A DNA stretch of 64,000 nucleotides from Pseudomonadota bacterium. Its GTDB lineage: Bacteria; Pseudomonadota; Alphaproteobacteria; Acetobacterales; Acetobacteraceae. Each line of letters starts with the position of its first letter. Position 1 is the first letter of the stretch. This document shows, piece after piece, positions 8,481 to 24,865 of this stretch. Under the pieces are notes generated by a model, which was given only the letters and a program-made list of their open reading frames with translations, did not search any database and was not told where the DNA came from. Made by a program: the position numbers and the translations under genes. The stretch spans positions 1 to 64,000 of the forward strand of contig JAJYYH010000023.1 in NCBI GenBank assembly GCA_021801255.1, read 5' to 3'.

Positions 8481-8888
8481 ATGTCGCGTCCCCCCGCTAT
8501 CCTGCCACCGAGCGAAGCCGATATCGTGGCCCTCGCCGAACGGGCGTTGGCGGCGATCCCGCCCCGCCTGGCGCGCCATGTCAGCGATGTCGGGATCATG
8601 GTCGAGGATATGCCCGACGAGGCTACCCTCGCCGAAATGGAGATCGAGTCCGGCTGGGATCTCACCGGCCTCTATCGTGGCACGCCGCTCAACCGCCGCA
8701 GTGTCGAGGATATCGCCCGCCTGCCCGATACCATCCTGCTCTACCGCCTGCCCATCCTCCTCGAATGGCTGGAGACCGACGAGGAGCTTGGGCACTTGGT
8801 GCGGAGTGTCGTGGTGCACGAGATTGCCCATCATTTCGGCTTCAGCGACGCCGAGATCGCCGCTATCGAGGCGGAGATGGAGGATTGA
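8481..8888 (+). CDS. Small zincin-like metalloprotease (minimal MMP-like domain)
   Basis: About 135 residues with the zinc-binding signature VVVHEIAHHFGFSD near the C-terminus, typical of the minimal zincin family (formerly DUF1025). The N-terminal part (LAERALAAIPPRLARHVSDVGIMVED) and LLGLYRGTPL-like segment (LTGLYRGTPLNRR) also match. Start is chosen at the ATG at 8481; a GTG at 8430 is possible. The stop codon TGA begins dispersed repeat copy A. Confidence 0.8.
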   Translation: MSRPPAILPPSEADIVALAERALAAIPPRLARHVSDVGIMVEDMPDEATLAEMEIESGWDLTGLYRGTPLNRRSVEDIARLPDTILLYRLPILLEWLETDEELGHLVRSVVVHEIAHHFGFSDAEIAAIEAEMED

Positions 8889-8989
8889 GAGTTTGCAAAA
8901 GAATGCCCGCACGCCCACAAATTGATCGAAAAGAATCAATTTTTTCAAAGGGCGTTCTTTTTCAAGTTCGATGGATTTTCAGGTTCTGA
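8886..8989 (+). repeat. Dispersed stop-codon-linked inverted-repeat element, copy A
   Basis: Starts with TGAGAGTTTGCAAAAGAAT, where TGA is the stop of the metalloprotease gene. The outer arms are AGAATGCCC and GGGCGTTCT followed by a T-run, as in an intrinsic terminator. The inner arms AAATTGAT and ATCAATTT pair perfectly over 8 bp. It ends TTCAAGTTCGATGGATTTTCA. Confidence 0.85.
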
Positions 8990-18565: not shown

Positions 18566-19069
18566 ATGCCTGCTCTCTCGACCTCAGAACCTTCCCGCGC
18601 GTCCAACCCGCTCGATACGCTGGAGCAGATCGTCGCGGCCAATGACTGGGCCTTCGATCGCCGCAGCGAATCCGAAATGGCGGCCGAAGCGCCTGGTAAA
18701 TGGTGCGATTACGGCCTCTATTTCAGTTGGTCGCACGAAATCAGCGCCATGCACTTTACCTGCGCCTTCGATCTCAAGGTGCCGGAGCGGCGCCGCGGCG
18801 CCTTGTTCGAGCTGCTGGCGCTGGCCAATGAACGCCTCTGGATCGGTCATTTCGGTCTCGACGGCGATGATGGCATGCCGCTGTTCCGCCACGCCATGCT
18901 GCTGCGCGGCACTCAAGGGGCTTCTACCGAAAGCCTGGAGGACATGGTGGATATCGCGCTCACCGAATGCGAGCGGTTTTTCCCCGCCTTCCAGTTCGTG
19001 CTGTGGGGCGGCAAGAGCCCGGCCGAGGCGCTACAGGCGGCGATGCTCGACTGCGTCGGCGAAGCATGA
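18566..19069 (+). CDS. YbjN domain-containing protein
   Basis: 167 residues. The fold is recognisable from NPLDTLEQIVAANDWAFDR, WCDYGLYFSWSHEISAMHF, the FELLALANERLWIGHFGL core and FRHAMLLRG. This group resembles the YbjN superfamily, linked to type III secretion chaperone-like folds; function is unknown. The start at 18566 has GGGAGA seven bases upstream. Its stop overlaps the proC start (ATGA), so the two are coupled. Confidence 0.75.
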   Translation: MPALSTSEPSRASNPLDTLEQIVAANDWAFDRRSESEMAAEAPGKWCDYGLYFSWSHEISAMHFTCAFDLKVPERRRGALFELLALANERLWIGHFGLDGDDGMPLFRHAMLLRGTQGASTESLEDMVDIALTECERFFPAFQFVLWGGKSPAEALQAAMLDCVGEA

Positions 19070-19869
19070 GCGAGGCCCCGCTGCCGCCGCTTTTGCTCAT
19101 CGGCTGCGGCCGCATGGGGAGCGCCTTGCTCGCCGGCTGGCGGGAGGCCGGGCTCGCTGAGGCGGTGATCGTCGATCCCGCCGGCCCAGAGCTGCGGGCG
19201 CCGGCGCGGGTGGTCGCGGAAGCGGCGGCGATCCCGCGCGATTTTGCCCCGCAAGCGGTAATTTTTGCGATCAAGCCGCAGGAGGCGGAAGCAACGCTTG
19301 CGCACTATGCGCGGTTTCGCGCGGGGGCGGTGTACCTCTCGATCATGGCCGGGCGCACGATTGCGGGCATGGAGCGCCTTCTCGGCGCGGGGGCCGTCAT
19401 CGTGCGCGCCATGCCGAACACGCCGGCGGCCATTCGCCAGGGCATCACCGCGGCCTACGCCGGCGCGAGCGTGAGCGCGGCACAGCGCGCGCTCACGGCG
19501 CGCCTGCTCGGCGCCATCGGTGAGGTGGCGTGGGTGGACGCCGAGGCCGAACTCGACGCCGTCACCGCGGTTTCGGGCTCGGGGCCGGCCTATGTGTTCC
19601 TGCTTGCCGAACTGATGGAGCAAGCCGGGATCGCCGAGGGACTGACGCCCGATCTGGCACGGCGTCTGGCACGGCGGACGGTTGCCGGCAGCGGCGCGCT
19701 GCTTGCGGCCAGCGCCGAGGAGGCGAGCGCGTTGCGCCAGGCCGTCACCAGCAAGGGCGGCACCACGCAAGCGGCACTCGATATCCTGATGGCGCCCGAG
19801 GCCTGGCCCGCCAGCGTGCGGCGTGCGATCGCCGCCGCCGCCGAGCGGTCGCGCGCACTCGCGCGGTAG
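19066..19869 (+). CDS. proC: Pyrroline-5-carboxylate reductase
   Basis: Reduces pyrroline-5-carboxylate to proline with NAD(P)H. 267 residues. The N-terminal Rossmann motif is IGCGRMGSALL (from residue 12), FAIKPQEAEATL follows, and VRAMPNTPAAIRQG is typical. The C-terminal domain contains AVSGSGPAYVFLLAELM and the SKGGTT active-site loop. Starts inside the stop of the upstream gene. Confidence 0.92.
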   Translation: MSEAPLPPLLLIGCGRMGSALLAGWREAGLAEAVIVDPAGPELRAPARVVAEAAAIPRDFAPQAVIFAIKPQEAEATLAHYARFRAGAVYLSIMAGRTIAGMERLLGAGAVIVRAMPNTPAAIRQGITAAYAGASVSAAQRALTARLLGAIGEVAWVDAEAELDAVTAVSGSGPAYVFLLAELMEQAGIAEGLTPDLARRLARRTVAGSGALLAASAEEASALRQAVTSKGGTTQAALDILMAPEAWPASVRRAIAAAAERSRALAR

Positions 19870-20123: not shown

Positions 20124-20137
20124 TGAACGATGGGCGG
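20124..20137. repeat. 14-bp direct repeat, left flank of the AT-rich island
   Basis: TGAACGATGGGCGG. The identical sequence in the same orientation is at 23050-23063, at the other edge of the island. Confidence 0.65.
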
Positions 20138-20178: not shown

Positions 20179-20775
20179 TTAAGAATTTATTTTCGACCTT
20201 ATGCAAGAAAACCACTCTCTTCCAGCTATATTTGAGTCTGGCACATGTAATGTATGCACTGCCCCATGAGCCAACTCACTCTGCAAAACACCACCAGCCA
20301 ATATAGCAAGTACTTCGCTAGCAGTGGTCTCGTTCGATGGTAGCTTTGTCGAGAGTGAGTCGGCAGATTGGCTCTGTATCGATAATTTCCAAGATCCAGA
20401 AGGGCCGGCAAAGATTAGGTGGGCGGGTGGTTTGCCATGAGTGATTACCGAACGTATTGCAGAACCAGAAATATAAAAATTAATAAAATAATTATTTTCA
20501 GAATAAATGCTGAGTTTCTCGGAATTTGTAGAGACGCTTGCATAACATTCATTATTTTCTACAGAAAATGACCAAACTGGTTTAGATTCTGCGGGCGGTT
20601 TTTTCGTGTTTTGTTGATAGGTATGTGTTGTATGGCTTGAATTAAAATTTGATGTTTGACACGAAGAAAGAACGAGACACAATAATACGTTTGAAACTCT
20701 GGTAAATTTCGCACGAAGGCAGCAAGGTATTTTTTTCATTTTTGTTTTTGTCTGACAAGTGAAAAACTTTTCCAA
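20179..20775 (-). CDS. Hypothetical lipoprotein of the AT-rich island
   Basis: 198 residues, not recognised. A basic N-terminus and a hydrophobic stretch (VSNVLLCLVLSSC) end in an LSSC lipobox, so it is probably a lipoprotein; the real start may be an internal Met near residue 13. The body is Ser/Asn/Thr-rich with beta-like segments (PVWSFSVENNECYASVSTN). Its coding bases are strikingly AT-rich compared with the GC-rich genes on either side, suggesting transfer. Its start overlaps the upstream gene by 40 bp; third gene of a three-gene operon. Confidence 0.6.
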   Translation of the reverse strand: MEKFFTCQTKTKMKKIPCCLRAKFTRVSNVLLCLVLSSCQTSNFNSSHTTHTYQQNTKKPPAESKPVWSFSVENNECYASVSTNSEKLSIYSENNYFINFYISGSAIRSVITHGKPPAHLIFAGPSGSWKLSIQSQSADSLSTKLPSNETTASEVLAILAGGVLQSELAHGAVHTLHVPDSNIAGREWFSCIRSKINS

Positions 20776-21260
20776 TCAGTCACTGCATATTGCGAGATAT
20801 CCCTGCGCACGGCATATAAACGCCACGCATATCTGTTGAATCTTGCATCCAAAGTAATTGTCTTAAAAATTTCAGAAACATAGCCTGAAAATATTTCTTG
20901 TATTTTATTATTATCTATAGCAATAACTTCAATAAAAATTTTTTCTTCGGTTGGGTCGTTTGGTATTATCCATGAAAATTTGACCTTGGTGAGATTACTA
21001 TTTGTTACGATGATTGCCCCGTCATCTGGTGCAACTGGCTTCGGCGGGGTTAGATGGTATTGTGTAAATGCCTCATCTGGCGCGATATCGCCGATAACGA
21101 TAGGCGTGATGGAACCAACAAGATGATGGCCATCTGGTGCATAGGGTAATGTTTGCTGTGCGAAGGAGCTCGCCTGCGCGGCGCCAGCGACAATCACAAA
21201 GACCCTTAAAAAAAGCATAATCGGTGATATCCAACGAATGTGCGGGCTATGGAGTCGCAA
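20736..21260 (-). CDS. Hypothetical exported protein of the AT-rich island
   Basis: 174 residues. A hydrophobic N-terminus (IMLFLRVFVIVAGAAQASS) looks like a cleavable signal peptide. The C-terminal half resembles a fibronectin-III-like beta domain: VKFSWIIPNDPTEEKIFIEV, then FNRYAWRLYAVRRDISQY, with the Trp and YAWRLYA spacing seen in periplasmic Fn3-like modules. That is an impression, not a firm match. It overlaps the ATPase gene by 14 bp and the lipoprotein gene by 40 bp, so the three are likely made together. Confidence 0.6.
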   Translation of the reverse strand: MRLHSPHIRWISPIMLFLRVFVIVAGAAQASSFAQQTLPYAPDGHHLVGSITPIVIGDIAPDEAFTQYHLTPPKPVAPDDGAIIVTNSNLTKVKFSWIIPNDPTEEKIFIEVIAIDNNKIQEIFSGYVSEIFKTITLDARFNRYAWRLYAVRRDISQYAVTDWKSFSLVRQKQK

Positions 21261-22899
21261 TCATAATCTCGACTGTGCCTGGCCGAGGAATCGCGCTTCG
21301 CGGCGAAAGCACGATGAGACGAGGCTGGCCGAATGCGCTTGCAAGCTTATGACTGATTTCAACAGCGCCGTCGCGATCCTGGGCAAAGAAAAAGCTGATA
21401 GAGGGCGCCGCGGCTCGGCTCAAAACTGGTATGGGATCTTCCGCTAAAAAGCCCATTGAGGTCAGGGTACGGGCAAGCTCCGCGGCACGCGCGGCCGCCT
21501 TGAGATTGCCGCGCGGATAGCTGATGACGACCCGGATAGGCGTGGCGGTCGGGAGCGGGAATAGTCGATTGGGTGCGAAACCGCCATATGATTCCGCGGA
21601 CGGCATGGCGCCCGGGTTAAACGCTGGAAGCGGTTTCACACTGGAACGAGAGCCTTCGCTGGCCATCACGGTTATCGCGGGGCCCGCCACGGCAAGACCC
21701 GCCGCTGCCGCATCGATCTGGGAAAACTTGGCGCTGGGTGCTGCCGCCAAACGGTCATCTGGCGCGGCGCGGGGGGACGGTGCTGGTTGCATCTTCGTTG
21801 GTTGCAGCATCGCTGGGCGGGCGCCGGGAGACGCATCCGGGGTGGTGGGACTATCGGGGTTTTTCCCAACCCCGGGTATAGACGTAAGTTTGGTTGCAAT
21901 GGCCAGAGACGGTGGGGCGTTTCCTGGCTTAGATAATGTTAAAATCGCGATGAACGGCCGGACGCCCGGCCAAGATAGGAGGGCCATAAGCGTGACAAAA
22001 CACGCGAAGACAAAGATCAAATCCAATATTTGTTCATGACGATTTTTTTGAGAATAAATTTTTTTATTTGATGTAAACTTAGCGGGGAATGGAAGAATTT
22101 TATTTTCTTTTATTTCTAACTGTTCAGATTGGTCATCCGTATAATCCAGAAGAATTGGAAGTTTTTCTTGATCATCAGCTTGGTTGCTATTTGCTTTTGT
22201 GACAGTGCCGGCAGAATCCAAGCCTGTAATTTCGGGCTTGCGACCGCTCTTCTCGTCTGATGTTTCGATACTTAAAAGGGCCGCGGCCTCCTCGATATGT
22301 GCGGCATGAACGTGCTCTACGCCTTCAAGAGAAGCAGAAAAGCAAGAGAGTTTGATCAGGTTGTCTAAAATGCGCGGCACGCCTTCGGACAGTATGGCGA
22401 GTTTCGCGATTGCTTCACTCGAAAAAAGTTCGGGAGGCTGCCCCCTTTGAGCCAAACGCGCTGAAACAAACATTTTAATATCATCAAATAAAAGACACTT
22501 TAGTTCAATCTTAGCAAAATTAATTAAAGAATCTTGCCAATGTTCAGTGGCCGCAGAGATGGCCGCAAAGACGATGAAGCGATTCCTTCGCTGACCCAAT
22601 TTCGCCAGAGTTGCAGGGATGGCGCGGTGTACTTCATCAATCAAAATTACTGCCGCGTCATCGCATTCAGGGAGAACATCACTGCGTTCGAATAAACGAG
22701 TTTCATGCCCAAGATCACGGAAAACCCGCGATAATTCGTGCAAAAGCAGCGTTTTGCCAGTCCCTGGAGGGCCGAATAGACCCACGACATTGGGGCCGTC
22801 TTCGAAGAGCTTCAGAATTTGCGTCCGAGCGTCGCACCACTTGGTATGGGGGATGATTGAGTCCATGGCGAGCAGCGCTTTTTCACGAATCTCCAACAT
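21247..22899 (-). CDS. ExeA/GspA-like AAA+ ATPase with membrane helix and periplasmic C-terminal domain
   Basis: 550 residues. The cytosolic AAA+ domain has Walker A GLFGPPGTGKT (about 40-50), Walker B AAVILIDEVHRA, a sensor-like IVFAAISAATEHW and RLAQRGQPPELFSSEAIAKL plus SEGVPRILDNL, the pattern of ExeA/GspA. One membrane helix (LIFVFACFVTLMALLSW) lies near residue 295-315, followed by a long Pro/Ala-rich linker. The C-terminal 100 residues (IRVVISYPRGNLKAAARAAE and LARTLTSMGFLAEDPIPV) look like a LytR_C/SPOR-type domain instead of the peptidoglycan-binding domain of classic GspA. It heads the three-gene operon. Probable role: an energised envelope-spanning assembly; the target is unknown. 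Confidence 0.7.
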   Translation of the reverse strand: MLEIREKALLAMDSIIPHTKWCDARTQILKLFEDGPNVVGLFGPPGTGKTLLLHELSRVFRDLGHETRLFERSDVLPECDDAAVILIDEVHRAIPATLAKLGQRRNRFIVFAAISAATEHWQDSLINFAKIELKCLLFDDIKMFVSARLAQRGQPPELFSSEAIAKLAILSEGVPRILDNLIKLSCFSASLEGVEHVHAAHIEEAAALLSIETSDEKSGRKPEITGLDSAGTVTKANSNQADDQEKLPILLDYTDDQSEQLEIKENKILPFPAKFTSNKKIYSQKNRHEQILDLIFVFACFVTLMALLSWPGVRPFIAILTLSKPGNAPPSLAIATKLTSIPGVGKNPDSPTTPDASPGARPAMLQPTKMQPAPSPRAAPDDRLAAAPSAKFSQIDAAAAGLAVAGPAITVMASEGSRSSVKPLPAFNPGAMPSAESYGGFAPNRLFPLPTATPIRVVISYPRGNLKAAARAAELARTLTSMGFLAEDPIPVLSRAAAPSISFFFAQDRDGAVEISHKLASAFGQPRLIVLSPRSAIPRPGTVEIMIATP

Positions 22900-23049: not shown

Positions 23050-23063
23050 TGAACGATGGGCGG
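23050..23063. repeat. 14-bp direct repeat, right flank of the AT-rich island
   Basis: TGAACGATGGGCGG, identical to 20124-20137. Confidence 0.65.
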
Positions 23064-23321: not shown

Positions 23322-23774
23322 ATGCGCCATTTTCTCCCCTCCGATCAGGTTACCATATATCACAATCCCGCCTGCGGCACCTCGCGCAACGTGCTCGGGC
23401 TGATCCGCAATGCCGGCATCACCCCGCATGTCGTCGAATATCTCAAGACGCCGCCAAGCCGTGCCGAACTCGTCGATCTCATCGCCCGCATGGGCTGCAC
23501 CGCGCGCGACGTGCTGCGCCGCAAGGGCACGCCGCATGACACGCTCGGCCTCGACGACCCCACGCTTGCCGAGGAAGCGCTCATCGCGGCCATGCTCGCC
23601 CACCCCATTCTCATCAATCGCCCGATCGTCGCCACCCCGCTCGGGGTGAGGCTCTGCCGGCCCTCGGAAACCGTGCTCGACATTCTGCCCACGCCCCAGC
23701 GCGGCGCCTTCGCCAAGGAAGACGGCGCACCGGTGGTGGACGCGCGGGGCAAGCGCGTGATCAAGGAAGGATAG
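23322..23774 (+). CDS. arsC: Arsenate reductase, glutaredoxin-dependent type
   Basis: Reduces arsenate to arsenite using glutathione and glutaredoxin. 150 residues. The catalytic Cys18 is in YHNPACGTSRN, and the arginines that bind arsenate appear in TPLGVRLCRPSE. The C-terminal KRVIKEG is also common in this subfamily. The start at 23322 follows GAGGAAAAA. Five bases separate it from the Acr3 gene. Confidence 0.92.
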   Translation: MRHFLPSDQVTIYHNPACGTSRNVLGLIRNAGITPHVVEYLKTPPSRAELVDLIARMGCTARDVLRRKGTPHDTLGLDDPTLAEEALIAAMLAHPILINRPIVATPLGVRLCRPSETVLDILPTPQRGAFAKEDGAPVVDARGKRVIKEG

Positions 23775-23779
23775 CCGGC

Positions 23780-24865
23780 ATGGCCGAGGCCATCGCGCCC
23801 GCGCGCCAGACAGCGCCAGGGTTGAACCTTTTCGAGCGCTTCCTCACGCTCTGGGTAGCGCTCTGCATCGTGGCCGGGATCGTGCTCGGCCAGACCGTCC
23901 CCGCGCCGTTCCATGTGCTCGGCGCGGCGACCCTCGCCCAGGTCAATCTGCCGGTGGCGGTGCTGATCTGGCTGATGATCGTGCCGATGCTGCTCAAGAT
24001 CGATCCCGGCGCACTCCGCCAGGTGGGGGCGCATTGGCGGGGGATGGCGGCGACGGTCGGCGTCAACTGGTTGGTCAAGCCGTTCTCCATGGCAGCGCTG
24101 GGCTGGCTCTTCATCGGCCACCTCTTCCGCCCCTATCTGCCGCCGGGCCAGATCGAGAGCTATATTGCCGGCCTCATTCTGCTCGCCGCGGCGCCATGCA
24201 CGGCGATGGTGTTCGTGTGGTCCGGTCTCGTCGAGGGCGAACCGGTTTTCACCCTGAGCCAGATCGCGCTCAACGACGCCATCATGGTGGTGGCGTTCGC
24301 GCCGATCGTCGGCCTGCTGCTGGGGCTTTCGTCCATCACTGTGCCGTGGAACACGCTGTTGCTCTCGGTCGCGCTCTATATCGTGATCCCGGTGATCATG
24401 GCGCAGGCGTGGCGCGCGGCCTTGCTGAAGCAGGGTGGGGCGGCGGCGCTCGCGCGCACGCTGGCCCGACTCGGGCCGATCTCGCTGGCCGCCCTACTCG
24501 TCATGCTGGTGCTGCTGTTCGGCCTCCAGGGCACGGCGATCGTCGCCCAGCCGGGAGTGATCGGCCTGCTCGCCATCCCCATCGTCGTGCAGGTTTATTT
24601 CAACGCTGGCCTCGCCTATGGGCTGAACCGCTGGTTAGGCACGGAATGGTGCGTTGCCGGGCCCTCGGCGCTGATCGGGGCGTCCAATTTCTTTGAACTC
24701 GCGGTCGCCGCCGCGATCGCACTGTTCGGTTTTCAATCCGGCGCGGCGCTCGCAACCGTGGTCGGCGTGCTCGTGGAAGTGCCGGTGATGCTCTCGGTGG
24801 TAGCCCTCGTCCGCCGCACCCGCCCCTGGTATGAAGCGGGGGCGGCGCGGCAGCGGAGGGGATGA
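23780..24865 (+). CDS. Arsenite efflux pump, Acr3 family
   Basis: Exports arsenite produced by ArsC. 361 residues with about ten membrane helices. The conserved cysteine is in LAAAPCTAMVFVWS, and the second half has the GASNFFELAVA helix that bile acid/arsenite transporters share. Together with arsC it forms a minimal resistance unit without arsR or arsH. Confidence 0.92.
   Translation: MAEAIAPARQTAPGLNLFERFLTLWVALCIVAGIVLGQTVPAPFHVLGAATLAQVNLPVAVLIWLMIVPMLLKIDPGALRQVGAHWRGMAATVGVNWLVKPFSMAALGWLFIGHLFRPYLPPGQIESYIAGLILLAAAPCTAMVFVWSGLVEGEPVFTLSQIALNDAIMVVAFAPIVGLLLGLSSITVPWNTLLLSVALYIVIPVIMAQAWRAALLKQGGAAALARTLARLGPISLAALLVMLVLLFGLQGTAIVAQPGVIGLLAIPIVVQVYFNAGLAYGLNRWLGTEWCVAGPSALIGASNFFELAVAAAIALFGFQSGAALATVVGVLVEVPVMLSVVALVRRTRPWYEAGAARQRRG

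Follow-up and report, generated by a model that had tools for sequence, protein, structure and literature searches.

Three neighboring genes in the genome of an Acetobacteraceae bacterium, encoding an AAA ATPase, an exported Fn3-like protein and a lipoprotein, raise the question of whether their products act together across the cell envelope and, if so, as what kind of device. The genes lie on contig JAJYYH010000023.1 of assembly GCA_021801255.1, within the stretch of 64,000 nucleotides (positions 1 to 64,000) that was analyzed as a whole and is called the window below. An earlier interpretation made from the nucleotide sequence alone (the sequence-only reading) had proposed an envelope-spanning machine resembling ExeAB, the secretin assembly system. 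From the conservation of the gene set, gene fusions, predicted domain folds and the exchange of heads between related loci, we propose with moderate confidence that the trio forms a trans-envelope scaffold that is anchored to peptidoglycan and bears a nucleotide-dependent head; its layout is like that of GspA-GspB (ExeA-ExeB), of which it is not a member. A physical complex, binding to the wall, placement at the outer membrane, use of ATP and a purpose are what this proposal would add to those observations.

The clustering of the three genes is more than chance, because 11 further loci have the same set, with the ATPase and the Fn3 protein joined in one polypeptide. We searched 299 genomes of the same family (all counts include the window genome) and found relatives of the ATPase in 22 (E ≤ 1e-6), of the Fn3 protein in 18 (E ≤ 0.01) and of the lipoprotein in 30 (E ≤ 0.01). 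One of the Fn3 matches, in genome G231 (E 0.006), was rejected as spurious because no Fn3 profile match was obtained on rechecking. A genome scan with four fused relatives gave 10 loci, nine from Roseomonas, Pararoseomonas and Pseudoroseomonas and one from a metagenome-assembled genome of Rubritepida, and in all 10 a single frame encoding an AAA domain, a transmembrane helix, a LytR_C-like domain and an Fn3 domain is followed by the lipoprotein gene (L024, L027, L029 and L034 are copies of four of these loci). The names of these organisms suggest that the family is the Acetobacteraceae/Roseomonadaceae group. In each of them, as in the window, the ATG of the lipoprotein gene shares 4 bp (ATGA) with the preceding stop codon. 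The eleventh fused locus, L036 in genome G283, has this 4-bp overlap only if translation starts from a TTG codon. Furthermore, when the window genome and G231 are left aside, 17 places with Fn3 relatives are found in the same-family set, and the Fn3 domain adjoins or shares a chain with a LytR_C and/or OmpA domain in 16 of them; the exception, L035, begins at a contig end. At L072, a lipoprotein relative is paired with an AAA protein whose periplasmic end is of another kind. A class-wide search of 337 genomes detected the Fn3 protein only in the window genome and gave one further lipoprotein match, which was weak and partial. A plasmid search gave two matches for the Fn3 protein, and the ATPase, lipoprotein and fused protein each had none.

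In the window itself, the three genes are intact open reading frames on the minus strand at the place given in the sequence-only reading, with start codons that are predictions read from the sequence (Table 1). That reading also reported overlaps of 14 and 40 bp, and these are insecure because both depend on upstream TTG starts, which give long forms of 174 amino acids for the Fn3 protein (20736-21260; the TTG at 21260 produces the 14-bp overlap) and 198 amino acids for the lipoprotein (20179-20775). When the ATG at 21218 is used, the Fn3 gene starts after a gap of 28 bp from the ATPase gene. The fixed stoichiometry that had been deduced from the overlaps is not sustained either, as overlap alone would not imply it.

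Table 1. Positions of the three genes, the periplasmic domain of the ATPase and the bracketing repeat within the window.
Feature	Position	Strand	Remarks
AAA ATPase gene	21247..22899	minus	Intact open reading frame, 550 amino acids, likely ATG 22899
LytR_C-like periplasmic domain of ATPase	21250..21585	minus	Approximately residues 445-550
Exported Fn3-like protein gene	20736..21218	minus	ATG 21218 preferred over TTG 21260
Lipoprotein gene	20179..20739	minus	ATG 20739; lipobox LSSC, Gln after Cys; family without Pfam model
14-nt perfect direct repeat, one copy	20124..20137	plus	Brackets AT-rich island
14-nt perfect direct repeat, other copy	23050..23063	plus	Brackets AT-rich island

The ATPase shows the architecture that had been read from its sequence, namely an AAA domain that carries the Walker A motif GPPGTGKT and the Walker B motif VILIDE, one clear hydrophobic helix (residues 291-309, mean hydropathy 2.5), a Pro/Ala-rich spacer and a C-terminal domain; a second, weaker hydrophobic peak lies at residues 395-413 (hydropathy 1.6). 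Scans of this protein against Pfam, NCBIfam and PADLOC returned generic AAA matches only. At the level of the family, 25 members were aligned, 20 of them with an AAA domain (L025 is excluded from the AAA rows). Compared with E. coli GspA, the family profile aligned over 161 columns with a probability of 85% (E 6e-6, calculated for one comparison), which agrees with the ExeA/GspA-like head suggested previously, and by this comparison the AAA domain of the family belongs with ExeA/GspA. Fifteen of the 25 members matched TIGR03015, the model of the XrtA/PEP-CTERM-associated ATPase, at E ≤ 0.001, with a best E of 3.6e-12; the window copy is outside these 15, with E 0.02 only. A role in anti-phage defence was considered and rejected: the ATPases gave only weak P-loop matches, and a ZorB match of one OmpA-domain protein (E 3.7e-8) was attributed to the common OmpA domain. 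Some AAA-helix relatives (L065-L070 without L067, L072, L074, L076 and L077) carry a different periplasmic end that has no Pfam match and contains a motif like FRGTTFNETLGRSG, and another, L075, has an SH3 domain at its end.

The periplasmic end of the ATPase had been called LytR_C/SPOR-like, and at the level of the family the LytR_C half of this assignment is the one supported. Pfam LytR_C was matched at E ≤ 1 by five of the 14 aligned members of the C-terminal domain (best E 3.3e-4), the window copy not being one of the five, and L032 gave E 0.0074, under the family cut-off, while SPOR (PF05036) was matched at E ≤ 1 neither by the window ATPase nor by any of the 14. In a profile search of the PDB with the LytR_C-like domain, 6s5y ranked first (E 0.018, 26 residues), followed by 2m5y, which we take to be a LytR_C domain structure (E 0.089, whole domain). 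The C-terminus is probably folded, as the homologous LytR_C-Fn3 region of the relative L123 was modeled with a mean predicted local distance difference test score (pLDDT) of 85.6 and a predicted template modeling score (pTM) of 0.82. The sequence-only reading had named an unfolded C-terminus and the absence of the trio from other genomes as grounds for its refutation, and neither applied, the first as judged from L123. In this model the Fn3 domain is a beta sandwich that matches Fn3 structures with Z up to 10.2, and Fn3 entries took up the list when the LytR_C-Fn3 region was used in a fold search. The window Fn3 protein aligns with the family whose L123 domain models as Fn3 and has an N-terminal hydrophobic segment, in agreement with the exported Fn3 partner of the sequence-only reading, and on these models it would carry an Fn3-like fold. 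It had no Pfam match and nothing significant in the Pfam, NCBIfam and PADLOC scans. Of 12 Fn3 proteins aligned, 10 matched Sel1 repeats, the window copy not being one of them.

The third component was likewise recognized correctly as a lipoprotein, as judged from its lipobox. The window protein gave nothing significant in the same three scans, and its family of 27 sequences matched no Pfam family below E 0.016. All 27 aligned members keep Trp56, Cys65 and Cys179. The structure model is confident from approximately residue 51, and comparison by VIA-align placed IalB (3dtd) at the top (Z 9.7, 117 residues, root-mean-square deviation 3.4), followed by the LPHT ring chain 8z5n (Z 9.2) and MotY (2zf8, Z 7.5), with the remainder at Z ≤ 6.0. 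We regard the likeness to IalB as a fold resemblance on a predicted model because Foldseek alone found no PDB match at E ≤ 0.001 and the profile-profile probability for IalB was 1.1%. Membership of the IalB family by sequence was rejected on this value, and PF06776 (IalB) was unmatched by all 27 members at E ≤ 1. The lipoprotein family thus resembles IalB and the N-terminal domain of MotY in predicted fold only, and unlike MotY none of its 27 members has an OmpA domain match in Pfam.

Further insight into the arrangement came from a second version of the gene set. In L025, L028, L030, L032 and L033, the gene for a LytR_C-like protein is followed by those for an OmpA-domain protein and a Sel1-Fn3 protein, and the same order is seen on plasmids of Phyllobacterium and Mesorhizobium (L159 and L160). 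The OmpA domain, a classical peptidoglycan binder, was verified with Pfam in L026 (E 7e-17) and L028. L026 and L081 have C-terminal residues in common and therefore look like two contig pieces of one second-version locus. Other loci show OmpA and Sel1-Fn3 only (L021-L023), LytR_C and Sel1-Fn3 with no OmpA match (L031), LytR_C and Fn3 (L016), or LytR_C and OmpA, Sel1 being located where the contig ends (L082). In L021-L023, which belong to one genus, the OmpA and Sel1-Fn3 genes come after PrkA, DUF444 and SpoVR genes (Pfam matches in L021, the same clusters in L022 and L023). In L033, the OmpA-domain gene (8486-8934), which has the AAA-LytR_C gene on one side and the Sel1-Fn3 gene on the other, is split over two frames and is either a pseudogene or affected by a sequence error.

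It is the head that differs among these loci. An AAA head is present in L028, L033 and L081. L032 has a head-like region without Walker A and L025 a short non-AAA region, and no AAA domain match was found in either of the two. The plasmid LytR_C proteins, encoded upstream of the OmpA and Sel1-Fn3 genes (L159 2817-5063 and L160 2987-5065), contain by eye a long repeated coiled-coil-like sequence. LytR_C and Fn3 domains are found even where the head has no Walker A or where a coiled coil takes its place. The constant core therefore appears to be the wall-side parts, with the ATPase as an exchangeable head.

In the scaffold that we propose, the AAA domain would reside in the cytosol and the single helix would cross the inner membrane, from which the Pro-rich linker would extend so that LytR_C reaches the cell wall. 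Docking of the Fn3 protein beside the LytR_C domain is suggested by their occurrence as a single chain in relatives, and the bridge would be closed by the lipoprotein through its anchor in the outer membrane. Binding or hydrolysis of ATP in the head may then open, close or assemble the bridge, by which something would be positioned or remodeled at the wall. A bolder extension, which we consider rather unlikely, is that the locus represents an undescribed envelope-spanning system in which interchangeable inner-membrane heads (AAA, dead AAA or coiled coil) serve a constant wall-side core of T-ring-like parts (OmpA, Sel1 and the MotY-N-like lipoprotein) together with LytR_C and Fn3, and in which the AAA form would transmit a nucleotide-driven force or state outward, from cytosol to outer membrane, with no secretin, pilus or flagellum involved. 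The proposed scaffold would extend the few ATPases known to reach as far as the wall by a secretin-free relative, would reveal a wall-side core whose inner-membrane head can be exchanged, and would for the first time place the lipoprotein family, which lacks a Pfam model, in a context.

Several observations weigh against the proposed scaffold. The C-terminal domain of the window ATPase, taken alone, has no LytR_C match at E ≤ 1 in Pfam, and in a tree of AAA domains the window copy sits on a long branch whose place is not resolved. After the Walker B Asp, Glu is found in 11 of the 20 AAA rows, Asp in eight and Ser in one. Because nine of 20 heads are without this Glu and one head (L032) lacks Walker A, a power stroke would not be general in the family. 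In addition, of the 29 lipoprotein places without an adjacent AAA gene, 20 were fetched, and 13 of these 20 (among L103-L122) adjoin membrane proteins of one BLAST cluster, four of the 13 (L105, L116, L118 and L120) being one neighborhood in the window's genus. Eleven proteins of this cluster were scanned; six match dCache_1 at E ≤ 0.01, all under its cut-off, four have histidine-kinase domains and four gave no match. These Cache and histidine-kinase neighbors point to sensing.

Sensing of the envelope state is thus the main rival, since the missing Walker B Glu bears on it together with the Cache and kinase neighbors. In such a device, the LytR_C-Fn3-lipoprotein part would detect a condition of the wall or outer membrane and switch the nucleotide state of the AAA domain, which would signal to a cytosolic partner in the manner of STAND proteins. 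The finding that each of two nSTAND models is matched by four of the 25 ATPase members is consistent with this idea, as is the occurrence of AAA proteins of the same family with different periplasmic ends, including SH3. However, no partner gene is kept beside the module beyond one genus among the loci compared, and the coiled-coil versions match no AAA head. We consider a sensor possible but doubtful.

A division protein like DamX, that is, a septal wall-binding membrane protein in which LytR_C replaces SPOR, is improbable. DamX and other SPOR proteins share with the window ATPase the order of a cytosolic part, one helix, a Pro-rich linker and a small wall-side domain, and DamX homologues in Pseudomonas may carry AAA heads. 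However, DamX of E. coli has a SPOR domain and no AAA domain, whereas the family of the window domain shows the LytR_C and SPOR counts given above, and the patchy distribution of the ATPase family (22 of 299 genomes) is unlike that of a division protein.

The role of ExeAB in secretin assembly, to which the sequence-only reading had compared the layout, found no support for this module. A GspA-GspB-like factor assembling a type II or related secretin would be in keeping with the related AAA domains and with the GspA-GspB layout and its fusion variants, as described in excerpts of PMC9239104 and PMC4098917. However, a secretin domain was found in eight of nine module carriers and in nine of 11 non-carriers, in those eight on other contigs than the module, and the carrier G292 had no secretin domain match. 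In addition, the window ATPase lacks the PG_binding_1 and C39-like domains of GspA, and we consider this role very unlikely. Equally hard to credit is a place in the flagellar motor as an accessory periplasmic ring comparable to the T ring, which is formed by MotX (Sel1) and MotY (MotY-N and OmpA). The fold of the lipoprotein is near that of MotY-N and the LPHT ring chain, and OmpA and Sel1 occur among the parts of the second version, as they do in MotY and MotX according to excerpts of PMC9093738. However, this likeness is fold similarity only, and the P-ring gene flgI, by which alone the flagellar association was judged, is present in eight of nine carriers versus 10 of 11 non-carriers. FlgI was not found in the carrier G041 (90% complete), and only three genomes, all of one genus, have it on the same contig as the module, approximately 45-55 kb away. 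Because carriers and non-carriers are nearly alike for both genes, neither a secretin nor a flagellum explains the distribution of the module.

The trio is situated in an AT-rich island. Its GC content is 0.48 (ATPase 0.53, Fn3 protein 0.41, lipoprotein 0.39) versus 0.71-0.81 in the genes of the 10 fused relatives. The ATPase and Fn3 genes are absent from all five same-genus genomes; relatives of the lipoprotein are present in all five, two in each. The 14-nt repeat has two exact copies in the 3.18-Mb genome, both at the island, the right one approximately 90 bp outside the GC step. It is a possible insertion footprint and could also have arisen by chance, which we roughly estimate at a few per cent for 3.5 kb. 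The island is flanked by proC-like and arsC genes (19066-19869 and 23322-24865), which are not neighbors in any of the three same-genus genomes for which both ends could be located and compared. In two of the same-genus genomes compared, arsC comes after two genes missing from the window, which look by eye like a regulator and a methyltransferase. The GC difference, the absence from same-genus genomes and the bracketing repeat would suit a recently acquired passenger set without function or selection in this genome, an explanation that is most improbable given three open frames and the retention of key residues of the families.

Finally, we compared the module with known systems. No literature on this gene set was found among the matches listed, which cover titles and abstract openings, most subscription journals being outside coverage. 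The nearest named model for the ATPase family is TIGR03015, and the lipoprotein shares a fold and no sequence match with IalB (PF06776). Excerpts of PMC9093738 describe MotX as carrying Sel1 and MotY as having its own N-terminal fold and an OmpA-like domain that is said to bind the wall. Sel1, OmpA and a MotY-N-like fold are thus parts of both the Vibrio T ring and the two module versions taken together, but the domain combinations differ, the likeness rests on fold, and the module has no flagellar association. Excerpts of PMC11832169 connect the LytR_C-only proteins of mycobacteria with the integrity of the cell wall. Two of them, VirR and Cei, resemble the module in having LytR_C without the catalytic LCP domain, but those excerpts mention no AAA head, Fn3 domain or lipoprotein partner for them. 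GspA-GspB, the architecture that comes nearest, serves a secretin, to which the module has no link, and GspA of E. coli has PG_binding_1 (PF01471) and a C39-like domain, where the window ATPase has the LytR_C-like domain instead. The Fn3 profile did not match E. coli GspB, a weak test because, according to excerpts of PMC9239104, the E. coli protein lacks the homology region; the excerpts also report that in some bacteria GspB works with a pilotin in place of GspA. In excerpts of PMC9239104 and PMC4098917, GspA-GspB binds the wall and the two proteins also occur fused, together with a wall-binding domain. The module and GspA-GspB are thus alike in an ExeA-type AAA domain, a single helix, a periplasmic end and a partner that is either fused or separate.

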